From contig JBFMHB010000030.1 of the NCBI GenBank assembly GCA_040752915.1, forward strand, positions 1-36,996: a stretch of DNA of 36,996 bases. The letters run 5' to 3'. This DNA comes from Acidobacteriota bacterium. GTDB lineage: Bacteria; Acidobacteriota; UBA4820; DSQY01. Position numbers and translations under genes: made by a program. The notes beneath the pieces were generated by a model that was given only the letters and a program-made list of their open reading frames with translations, searched no databases and had not been told where the DNA came from. Shown here piece after piece: positions 16,497-36,996 of the stretch (the stretch's first letter is position 1; the number at the start of each line of letters is the position of its first letter).

Positions 16497-16545
16497 ATCT
16501 CCTCCCGCTAACCCGGTCCGTTCCTTCGCTCTCCGCCTCGCCCCC

Positions 16546-16594
16546 CACGTCTCACGTTTCGCGTCTCACGTTTTGCGTCCCACGTCTTACGTTT
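16546..16594. repeat. Seven tandem degenerate heptamers
   Basis: Read on the plus strand as CACGTCT, CACGTTT, CGCGTCT, CACGTTT, TGCGTCC, CACGTCT, TACGTTT. Each unit has the pattern NRCGTYY, with alternating CT and TT endings. The array sits 50 bases upstream of the start of the small exported protein gene (16496) and at the edge of the repeat region. Copy number may vary between strains. Confidence 0.8.
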
Positions 16595-16874
16595 CATCAT
16601 GCGTGTCCAAAATAAAGCAGCGTGTCTCCTTCGAACGTCGGCCGGGCCCTGGCCGCGCCCTTGGCGCGGCACGGAGGGCCTGGTCCGGGCGCGTCCATGC
16701 CCGCCTCCCCGCGCCCCGTTCCCAGCCCCTCCGCCGCCCATCGGGCTCCAGGCCCGGCCTCGTGCTGGAATGCGCCTCCCCCCTCCTCTGGCGTTGCGCC
16801 GGCGGCGCCGGACCGATTGCGGCGTCAGCCTTCGGCGGCCAGCTCCTCGACGTACATCCCAGTACGCCTGCGTA

Positions 16875-16896
16875 GCAGCCGCCTCGGCTTCCTTGC
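16875..16896 (-). repeat. Dispersed repeat copy A, distal segment
   Basis: These 22 bases match 36975-36996 in inverse orientation at 21 of 22 positions. In copy B this segment lies five bases from the 51-base core, but here it is 277 bases away. More of this segment may exist beyond 16875, but copy B is cut by the window end, so its length is unknown. Confidence 0.7.
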
Positions 16897-16898
16897 CG

Positions 16899-17169
16899 GG
16901 GGTCCGGCCCTCCGGGGGCTCTCGGCGCGTTGCCCGCCGGGCCAGAGCAGGTTCGCGAAGGCGCGACGAGCGCGTGCCGGAAGCACGCCAAGGAGCGCCG
17001 ACAAAGAAGATGCCTGGCCCGGCGTCAACCCGGAGGGACGGGGCGGCCTGGGCGCCCGGCTGTGTCACGGCTCGTCGAGGATGCCCCCCGCATGTTCCTC
17101 CTCGCCGCTCCTTGCCGTGCATCCCAGGGCGCTCCCGTCGCGCCAGAGATCCCCGGGGGGCCGGACCCC
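16899..17169. repeat. 271-bp imperfect palindrome interrupting a dispersed repeat
   Basis: The ends are inverted repeats, 16899-16917 against 17151-17169, pairing at 18 of 19 positions. Inside, 16960-16974 pairs approximately with 17128-17144, and 16983-17000 pairs with 17103-17120 at 16 of 18. All pairs are nested in the right order around GGGCGCCC at 17050-17057. The left arm has roughly 35 extra bases. There is no coding potential. It could be a small non-autonomous mobile element, a fold-back pair of diverged repeats, or a structured RNA. Confidence 0.6.
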
Positions 17170-17173
17170 TTCA

Positions 17174-17257
17174 GCCCACCGGCGCCGGGACGCGCCTTCC
17201 TCCGCTTCGCTCCGGAAGGCAGGCAGCATGAGACGCGCAAAAAGATCTTGGACAGGC
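17174..17257 (-). repeat. Dispersed repeat copy A, core
   Basis: The 51 bases 17174-17224 are identical, in inverse orientation, to 36919-36969. A further 19 bases (17239-17257) are identical to 36884-36902. The 14-16 bases between them differ in both sequence and length. The core holds two adjacent imperfect hairpins (CCTTCC...GGAAGG and GGCGC...GCGCC), which resembles REP/BIME-type extragenic repeats. It begins nine bases past the inositol monophosphatase stop. Confidence 0.85.
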
Positions 17258-17265
17258 ATGACGTT

Positions 17266-18042
17266 TCACGTAATGCACTCCCTCAAGGCCGAGGCGAGGT
17301 CCCGCGTGGCGCCCGCCACCACGTTCCGGCCGAAGAGGAAGTCTTCCCCCCCGGAGAAGTCCGTCAGATGGCCCCCCGCGGCCCGAAGGATGGCGGCGCC
17401 GGCGGCCACGTCCCAGGGCCAGAGGCCGCGCTCCCAGAAGCCGTCGAAGCGCCCCGCCGCCGTCCAGCAAAGATCCAGGGCCGCGGCCCCGCACCGGCGG
17501 ATCCCCCCCGTCGCGCACGCCGCCTGCCGGAATCCCTTCACGTAGTGGTCCAGGTGGTCCAGCTCCTTGAAGGGGAAGCCGGTGGCCACGAAGGCCCCCT
17601 CCAGGCGGCGCCGGCCCGAGGTCCGGATGGGATTCCCGTTGAGCGTCGCGGGGAGCCCCTTCCCCCCCTGAAAGAGCTCGTCGTGCACCGGGTCGTAGAC
17701 CACGCCCAGGGCCGGAGCGCCGTCCTCGATGAGGCCCACGGAGACGCAGTAGACGGGCAGGCCCCGAACGAAGTTGTTGGTGCCGTCCAGGGGATCCACA
17801 CAGAAGAACCGCCCTTCCTGGCCCGTGGCGGTGCCCGAGCCTTCCTCCGCCAAGAGGGGCATATCCGGACAGCGCAGGGCGAGGATCGCTTTCACGGCGG
17901 CCTCGCAGGCCTTGTCGGTGGCGGTGACGAAGTCGTTGGCGCCCTTCGCCTCCACCCAGGCGGTCCCCTCCACCCGGGCTTTCTTCAGGATCCGTCCGGC
18001 CTCCAGGGCCGCCTCGGTCATGGCGTCCAGGTACGCTTGCAT
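17266..18042 (-). CDS. Inositol monophosphatase family protein
   Basis: A 258-residue Mg-dependent phosphatase (SuhB/CysQ/IMPase fold). The metal-binding motifs are LLAEEGSG (about 64-70), VDPLDGTNNFVRG (82-94, with D83 and D86) and the C-terminal WPWDVAAGAAIL. The length matches the family (250-270). Substrates could be inositol-1-phosphate, histidinol phosphate, fructose-1,6-bisphosphate or PAP; the sequence does not decide. ATG 18042 overlaps the xerC stop by one base (TGATG) with AGGAGG upstream, and an in-frame TTG one codon earlier is less likely. It is the last gene of the murA operon, and a dispersed repeat begins nine bases after its stop. Confidence 0.9.
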   Translation of the reverse strand: MQAYLDAMTEAALEAGRILKKARVEGTAWVEAKGANDFVTATDKACEAAVKAILALRCPDMPLLAEEGSGTATGQEGRFFCVDPLDGTNNFVRGLPVYCVSVGLIEDGAPALGVVYDPVHDELFQGGKGLPATLNGNPIRTSGRRRLEGAFVATGFPFKELDHLDHYVKGFRQAACATGGIRRCGAAALDLCWTAAGRFDGFWERGLWPWDVAAGAAILRAAGGHLTDFSGGEDFLFGRNVVAGATRDLASALRECIT

Positions 18043-18989
18043 CAATCCTCCTCGGGGTCCGGCGTCCGATTCCTGCGGGCCCGGGGGTGGGCCGAGTCGT
18101 ACACGGCCTTGAGCTGGGCCGTGGCCACGTGGGTGTATTTCTGAGTCGTGGAGAGGCTGGCGTGCCCCAGGAGTTCCTGGATCGTCCTCAGGTCCGCCCC
18201 GCGCGAGAGAAGGTGGGTGGCGAAAGAGTGGCGGAGCGTGTGGGGCGAGGCGTCGGCGTCCGTGGGAATCTGAGGCAGATAACGCTCCACCGTGCGCTGG
18301 AGTGAGCGGGCGGTGAGACGCCTTCCTTTCAGGTTGACGAAGACGGCGGGCGTCAAGGGGACGGGGAAGGCCTCCTTCCGCGCCGCGAGATAGGCCTTTA
18401 GGGCCTGGGCCGCGGGTTCCCCGAAGGGCACGATGCGCTCCTTCCTCCCCTTTCCGAGGACCCTCACGATGCGCCCATCCAGGTCCAGCCCATCGAAGTC
18501 GAGCCCCACGGCCTCGGAGGCCCTCAACCCCGTGGCATACAGGAGTTCGAGGAGGGCCCGGTCTCTCAGGCCCGCCAGAGTGCCCGTGTCGGGCCGGGGC
18601 GGCGCCTCCACCAGCGCCGCCGCCTCCTCCTCCGTGAGGACGCGCGGCACCTTTCTCAGCTGGCGAGGCGTTCCCAGGGCCCGGGCCGGGTTCAGCCCGA
18701 TGCGACCCTCCCGGTGGAGGAAGCGGAAGAAACTGCGCACCGCGGCGAGCTTCCGCATGATGGTGACCCTGGCCAGCCCCCTCTGATGGAGGTGTCCCAG
18801 GTAGGCCCTCAGGGTCAGCGTGTCGACGGATGCGATCTCCACGCCCCCCGGGAACAGGCGCCGCAAGAAGACCTCCATCTGCCGGAGGTCCGACTTGTAG
18901 TTCCGAAGAGTGTGGCCGGAGACGCGCTGCTCGTCCCGCAGGTGGCGCTCGAATTCGGCGAGGGCGGACCGAAGCGCGTCTTTCTCCAT
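18042..18989 (-). CDS. xerC: XerC/XerD-type tyrosine recombinase
   Basis: A 315-residue site-specific recombinase. A core-binding SAM-like domain spans about 1-100 (HTLRNYKSDLRQMEVFL), and the catalytic domain about 115-300. The active-site set is complete: R156 (GLRASE), K180 (GKGRKER), H250 and R253 (HTLRHSFATH), H276 (LLGHASL) and nucleophile Y285 (TTQKYTHV). Length and motifs fit chromosome-dimer-resolving XerC/XerD rather than phage integrases, and the housekeeping operon supports this. Whether it is XerC or XerD cannot be told, and the symbol is a best guess. A -10-like TAGAAT lies only six bases before the ATG, and no good Shine-Dalgarno is seen. Its tail is Arg-rich and acidic (RARRNRTPDPEED). 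Confidence 0.9.
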   Translation of the reverse strand: MEKDALRSALAEFERHLRDEQRVSGHTLRNYKSDLRQMEVFLRRLFPGGVEIASVDTLTLRAYLGHLHQRGLARVTIMRKLAAVRSFFRFLHREGRIGLNPARALGTPRQLRKVPRVLTEEEAAALVEAPPRPDTGTLAGLRDRALLELLYATGLRASEAVGLDFDGLDLDGRIVRVLGKGRKERIVPFGEPAAQALKAYLAARKEAFPVPLTPAVFVNLKGRRLTARSLQRTVERYLPQIPTDADASPHTLRHSFATHLLSRGADLRTIQELLGHASLSTTQKYTHVATAQLKAVYDSAHPRARRNRTPDPEED

Positions 18990-36503: not shown

Positions 36504-36996
36504 GGGTGGTTCTCAAAGGGTTGTTTTCGATGTTGCGAACCCAGGAAGGAGGGAAAACGGGCGGGTTCGCGGGAATGTGCGGACATTGTAGAGACAGGCC
36601 TTCTGCCTCTTCTGCCTTTCTTGGCCATCCTCAAGCCCTGCCGCCAGAAGAGTACCCCCCAGGACTCTTCGGAGCAAGGACTTGCTGTGCCATCTCCCTT
36701 CGGCGTCTTTCTCCTTCATTCTTCTCCCCCTCTTGAGACGGCCGCCTCCAAACCCCTCTCCGTCCTCCGGGCGGCGGAATCGGTCCAACGGGTTCCATGG
36801 GTTCGAATCTACCCCCCCCCCGCGTTGTCAAGGGGGGTGCGCCGCGGGCCATCTTTCGCCGGCTGAAAGGGGAAAGGCGGGAAGCCTGTCCAAGATCTTT
36901 TTGGGCCCGTTTTGTGCGGCCTGCCTTCCGGAGCGAAGCGGAGGAAGGCGCGTCCCGGCGCCGGTGGGCCGAGTGCAAGGAAGCCGAGGCGGCCGC
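36504..36996. other. Gene-free tail of the window
   Basis: No convincing gene; the open frames are short and low-complexity. It contains the leader of the minus-strand hypothetical gene, a run of ten C (36812-36821) that can pair with GGGGGG at 36832-36837, and a TTGACA on the minus strand (36831-36826) without a good -10 at normal spacing (TAGATT lies 14 bases away). The last 110 bases are dispersed repeat copy B. Confidence 0.6.
36884..36996 (+). repeat. Dispersed repeat copy B (cut by window end)
   Basis: Matches copy A in inverse orientation in three blocks: 36884-36902 (19 of 19), 36919-36969 (51 of 51) and 36975-36996 (21 of 22). The last two blocks are five bases apart here but 278 bases apart in copy A. 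The element continues past the window. No coding potential is seen. Confidence 0.85.

Follow-up and report, generated by a model that had tools for sequence, protein, structure and literature searches.

Two copies of R1, a dispersed repeat, lie in the stretch of DNA analysed here (the window, 36,996 nucleotides, a whole contig, C30, of a draft genome of 3.07 Mb in 153 contigs), and in one of them the blocks of the repeat are separated by an additional 277 bases. The question raised by this locus is whether these bases were gained by one copy or lost by the other, and, if they were gained, what kind of element they represent and which enzyme could have moved it.

Results

Organization of the R1 copies

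Without the insert R1 measures approximately 400 bp, and about 20 full or partial copies are present in the source genome (G000). The sequence agrees with the original prediction in that the blocks of copy B stand five bases apart, the 22-base block occupying 36975-36996, ACTCG 36970-36974 and the 51-base identical core lying within 36884-36969, while those of copy A are split by 16897-17173 (Table 1); the 22-base block is identical in the two copies at 21 of 22 positions. The 19-bp inverted ends described for the extra segment were found at 16899-16917 and 17151-17169, with 18 of 19 positions complementary, and the claim that the insert lacks a target duplication held as well. Copy A is placed in an intergenic region (16.5-17.27 kb) directly downstream of an inositol-monophosphatase gene (17266-18045, minus strand), which is adjoined by a tyrosine recombinase gene (18042-18989; Phage_integrase and SAM-like N-terminal domains, possibly XerC/D). 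Degenerate (T)CACGTTT units form a short array around the copy (16545-16596 and 17262-17275), and the CGTTTCA present on both R1 flanks might be a target duplication or merely part of this array. The contig itself stops inside an R1 copy (36884-36996), contigs C95, C72 and C2 likewise terminate in R1 copies, and the assembly appears to break at repeats of this kind.

Table 1. Coordinates of the R1 copies, the inserted segment and its structural parts in the window.
Feature	Position	Strand	Remarks
R1 copy A, including the insert	16597-17261	+	Homology to other copies of the source genome; empty R1 reference, contig C68
R1 left terminal inverted repeat, TCATGCGTGTCCAA	16597-16610	+	13/14 complementary to 17248-17261
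Inserted segment	16897-17173	+	Non-autonomous fold-back element, 277 bp; conserved bounds 16899-17169
P1 5' strand (terminal stem), starts GGGGTCCGG	16899-16921	+	23 pairs, 13 with both-side changes (26 copies)
P2 5' strand, GCGC	16925-16928	+	Partner 17140-17143; 100% of cells paired
Hairpin arm 1 (H unit), GUUG...CAAC	16929-17029	+	Helices 3-5, 13 pairs with both-side changes
CCGGAGG hairpin of the junction, separating arms 1 and 2	17030-17036	+	Invariant; alignment A1
Hairpin arm 2 (H unit)	17037-17139	+	Both-side changes at 13 pairs in helices 7-10; sequence approximates arm 1 reverse-complemented
P1 3' strand, ends CCGGACCCC	17146-17169	+	Pairs in the 26-copy alignment
R1 right terminal inverted repeat, TTGGACAGGCATGA	17248-17261	-	Read from the sequence
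R1 copy B, empty site	36884-36996	-	Ends with the contig end

Recurrence of the segment and empty sites

Further copies of the segment and counterparts of the empty site were both found in the source genome and in its relatives, named in the records as Acidobacteria MAGs and Candidatus Aminicenantes. Three places in the source genome hold the segment (two of the copies complete, the third truncated at its left end), and among the Aminicenantes relatives 39 matches were obtained in G003, 17 in G007 and 5 in G001; many of those in G003 and G007 lie outside R1, with bounds within ±2 of positions 16899 and 17169 of the window. Segment length ranges from 271 to 283 bp, and its non-coding status was judged from structure. 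Far from holding the 277 bases throughout, most R1 copies are without them, and most of the others in the source genome show a short empty site of the ACTCGG/ACTAGG type. Across three genera in total, empty sites read ACTCGG in the source genome and ACTAGG, CCTAGG or ATGAGG in other copies and genera, while filled sites read YG-[GGGGTC...GACCCC]-TTCA or -TGGG; the two differ by several bases and the exact junction is thus not defined. At one G007 locus (L132) the segment is inverted at the identical R1 site, and it is also found at either of two sites in the arms of fam2, an unrelated second repeat with different ends.

The occurrence of R1 with and without the segment, together with the lone, inverted and fam2 copies, makes insertion into R1, and not deletion in copy B, the sound reading. 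The original prediction had left the choice between a small non-autonomous mobile element and a fold-back unit: the first is borne out by same-ended copies in other contexts and by empty sites, and the second holds too, the mobile element being itself a conserved fold-back structure. No target-site duplication was seen for the window's segment type on comparing filled and empty R1 sites, and neither direct excision nor strain-level polymorphism of the segment was seen in the genomes examined.

A covarying two-arm fold

As a single strand the segment folds with a stability that none of 200 dinucleotide shuffles reached (z = -6.6 as RNA, -5.8 as DNA). The alignment of 26 full copies (A1) yielded a consensus structure of 89 pairs, in which a 23-bp terminal stem (P1) and a GCGC/GCGC helix lead to a three-way junction with two long hairpin arms (Table 1). 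Of the inner pairings proposed earlier, the 35-nt inverted pair and GGGCGCCC (17050-17057) are present, but a single nested hairpin around GGGCGCCC is not favoured; the fold backed by covariation consists instead of the long terminal stem and two separate arms around CCCGGAGGG (17029-17037), which the 35-nt inverted pair links. When arm 1 was aligned globally against reverse-complemented arm 2, the identities obtained were unstable (0.29-0.63), and the similarity of the arms therefore rests on that inverted pair and on reverse-strand matches of the covariance model described below.

The covariance check proposed for the stems turned out in favour of this structure: 39 of the 89 pairs carry both-side changes in at least one of the 26 copies, cells with such changes number 226 as compared to 26-38 after sliding the partners by 1-3 columns, and pairing holds in 96.2% of cells. 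One G.U pair in P1 is nearly invariant (25 of 26 copies), and conserved unpaired motifs comprise GACAAAGAAGATGC, CATCCCAGGGCGC, CCAGAGAT and others.

A phylum-wide core with varied ends

A covariance model built from the 26-copy alignment scored 260.5 bits on the window segment and 118 bits on its reverse strand, and matched 66 times in G003, 24 in G007, 16 in G002 and 10 in G009, some of these matches being one locus counted on both strands. When the phylum was scanned, with Acidobacteriota alone as the scope, the same fold was present in 62 of 297 sampled genomes (E <= 1e-6). At 32 loci outside the training set, 93.1% of cells are paired, both-side changes affect 78 of the 89 pairs and the corresponding cells number 836 against 105-166 when slid; this alignment was fitted to the model and leans to its structure, a bias from which the 26-copy figures, taken on the original alignment, are free. 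The model also matches R1 itself, weakly (19.6 bits, a half-unit at 16828-16888), so that the window segment appears to be one superfamily member lodged within a distantly related one.

At least five kinds of ends were read in the 32 loci, namely GGAGCCTGTCCGAGTA, GAGCCTATCC, GTGTCCTGTCCCAGGA, GGGTCTGTTTTCAAATT, (TA)GCAGGCTGYTGA and others. TA flanks both sides at 21 of the 32 loci (TA background 1.3%) and CTAG at 10, while the window's branch has GGGGTCNGG ends and neither flank. Core-free palindromes of 49 bp with GGAGCCTGTCCGAGTA (GGAGCC) ends occur in two further genomes (L313, G038 C20; L320, G257 C159), indicating that these ends can exist without the core. In G008, a fluoride riboswitch (58.4 bits; L238, 1355-1415) lies approximately 85 bp from a core-bearing element.

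None of 4227 Rfam models matched at gathering score and no credible match appeared even at E <= 10; searches of plasmid, phage and viral sequences for the element gave no match, and it is not described in the open-licence papers searched. The segment is a new fold-back family, classed as MITE-like in view of the missing duplication in the window's type, whose unusual feature is a phylum-wide structured core common to unrelated ends.

Discussion

Candidate enzymes

We consider likely the joint reading in which a fold-back MITE inserted into R1, its two-arm core is found in elements of varied ends, and a Y1 transposase is the mover of the GGGGTCNGG type. The segment would have entered R1, with copy B representing the unoccupied repeat; as a single strand it would fold into the long terminal stem and two arms at the three-way junction, and a Y1 (HUH, IS200-like) transposase of the TIRYT group could act on it in trans, for example during replication. 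Such action would account for two features: no target duplication would be left, and P1 could take on any sequence change that preserves its pairing. Taken by itself, the Y1 route for the window's type, the most likely of those considered, is a real possibility, at somewhat less than an even chance. We infer which transposase acts, the passage through a single strand and the reason for the conservation of the core.

Y1 genes of the same genomes reside in TIRtrons flanked by GGGGTCAGGTCTTK or GGGGTCACATCTTG inverted repeats. One in G003 (C229) is 993 bp long with GGGGTCAGGTCTTGCAAT ends, also read GGGGTCAGGTCTTG, and encodes 311 aa, one in the source genome (C23) has GGGGTCACATCTTG ends and encodes 289 aa, and both proteins possess a Y1_Tnp domain (E = 4.1e-11 and 8.2e-13, respectively) and a C-terminal HTH; further TIRtrons are found in G007 (C136) and G001 (C49 and C52). 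The TIRYT class is characterized by the motif GGGGWSAS and includes a defined Acidobacteria group (PMC3733652; PMC6006769). The segment ends are GGGGTCAGG in G001, GGGGTCTGG in G003 and GGGGTCCGG in the window, and share only 6-9 terminal bases with the TIRtron ends. G001 copies fit the motif exactly (GGGGTCAG), the window copy is one base off (GGGGTCCG) and several copies are further off, with AGGCTCTGG and GGGTTCCGG among the branch copies that depart from it more strongly. The TA/CTAG-flanked ends of other superfamily members point to DDE transposases, and therefore to a core that is not bound to Y1 enzymes.

R1 was also considered as the end of a specific Y1 element and rejected, given that the R1-like copy of contig C65 is complete in itself and that other Y1 genes have no R1 ends. 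That copy (L191, approximately 2043-2450) either abuts a Y1 reading frame in its upstream part or overlaps it there. When reading frames near single ends were compared all against all, the matches listed were mostly the element itself, and no clear shared transposase stood out among them.

A DDE transposase of the IS1182/IS5 kind is an unlikely mover of the window's segment, and offers a better fit than Y1 for the other superfamily members. IS1272, of the IS1182 family, is reported to replace target stem-loops without duplication (PMC5678879). Relatives of the segment have TA/CTAG flanks, while the window's type has GGGGTCCGG ends and no such flank, the features of IS1182-type MITEs being found only in other types of the superfamily. 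In G257 the CTAGAGATCCATCCGGAAA ends of an IS1182 transposase (NF033551, 288 bits) resemble the fam2 ends GAGCCTATCCGGAAA, but no PF05598 transposase was detected in G000, G003 or G007, in which the segment is present or abundant. Contig ends of G168 show GGAGCCCGTCCGAGTA and then a reading frame, MKIFRPYEPDQ..., which we take to be transposase-like, although NCBIfam gave no family for this short peptide. Moreover, the P1 sequence is free to vary while pairing, unlike a DDE binding site. There are four such GGAGCCCGTCCGAGTA contig ends in G168 (L301, L305, L308, L311), two of which run into the MKIFRPYEPDQ frame, and they are probably a collapsed insertion sequence with ends like those of core-bearing elements. 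A full autonomous element with GGAGCCTGTCCGAGTA ends was looked for and abandoned as a candidate, only contig-end fragments being present in G168 and no full copy in its family. Whatever probability is not taken by Y1 and DDE enzymes falls to an extinct or unidentified transposase as mover of the window's type.

Nature of the fold

Why the core is kept while the ends change is a separate matter. We tentatively suggest, as a possibility on the unlikely side, that the two-hairpin core is an independently selected ssDNA or RNA module serving replication, targeting or host benefit, which passed between elements moved by Y1/HUH and by DDE enzymes, had its ends swapped by nesting and was kept throughout the phylum.

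It is doubtful that the core serves as a non-coding RNA with a regulatory or catalytic function, riding on mobile elements and maintained in its fold by selection on the RNA. The phylum-wide covariation, the conserved unpaired motifs and the nearly invariant G.U pair of P1 are all consistent with such an RNA; nevertheless no strand preference was detected, G.U and A.C types being 28:20 (p = 0.31) and phylum-wide cells 68:52, the reverse strand also fits the model (118 vs. 260 bits) and does so nearly equally in many relatives, and Rfam offers no credible counterpart. The fold may act as single-stranded DNA on either strand.

Covariation could also arise without function, if template switching at quasi-palindromes used one arm of each hairpin to rewrite its partner. 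Correction templated by hairpins is known as a mutational process, and in favour of this view are also the fit of both strands to the model and the reverse complementarity between parts of arms 1 and 2. We regard it as quite unlikely: across the phylum, internal loops and bulges are kept unpaired and have not been turned into perfect palindromes, which argues for selection or functional constraint, and the invariant unpaired motifs require selection or recent spread. Part of the covariation could nonetheless stem from hairpin-templated mutation.

Very improbable, and largely refuted, is an origin of copy B and the remaining short R1 copies by deletion, from an R1 in which the segment was always present. 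Deletions do happen: in an R1 copy of contig C24 of the source genome (L146), only 17 nt of the segment's right stem are left at the site. The short sequences shared by empty sites across three genera nevertheless led us to reject this origin for copy B, the stem remnants it predicts are absent from the empty sites of relatives, and the segment is also found on its own, within fam2, and in the opposite orientation at the same site of R1.

Small palindromic repeats are commonly regarded as debris particular to one species. In the present case one complex fold, covarying at nearly every pair, was traced through a phylum and at least five kinds of ends. This opens a concrete test of where in a bacterial fold-back element selection acts and of the enzymes that handle it, and the covariance model is supplied for a repeat class that breaks metagenome assemblies.

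Comparison with known systems

Among the closest parallels are the TIR repeats of TIRYT/TIRtron systems (Y1 subclass 2.1), dispersed palindromic repeats with Y1 genes in the same genome, GGGGWSAS-type inverted repeats and no duplication (PMC3733652; PMC6006769). The TIRtrons of the present genomes have GGGGTCAGG.../GGGGTCACA... ends; unlike them, the segment has a two-arm core, the best core match in the TIRtrons examined being unconvincing (9.5 bits, E = 0.35). With the IS1182 family (IS1272), characterized by target palindromes and no duplication, and with its possible MITEs, the fam2 type shares CTAG/TA context and similar terminal sequence, whereas the window's segment has other ends and neither flank.

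HEARO, the IscB omega-RNA and other large Rfam RNAs are likewise large structured elements in many genomic copies, but the segment matches none of the 4227 models at gathering score; any resemblance to large RNAs already known, or to the T-shaped termini of viruses, is taken as an analogy only. As in REP/BIME elements with RAYT, each unit contains two inverted imperfect hairpins, nesting is mosaic and a Y1 enzyme would act in trans; REP units, however, are of 20-40 nt with a GTAG tag, which was not found in the ends read here, while the units described are of approximately 100 nt and enclosed by a long terminal stem. ERIC, NEMIS, RUP, bcr1 and YPAL, MITEs or stem-loop families of 70-300 bp, resemble the segment in their inverted ends, intergenic location, lack of coding capacity and whole-unit fold. 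These families are reported to have narrower host ranges and one set of ends each (PMC3733652), whereas here a single core extends through a phylum with unrelated ends.
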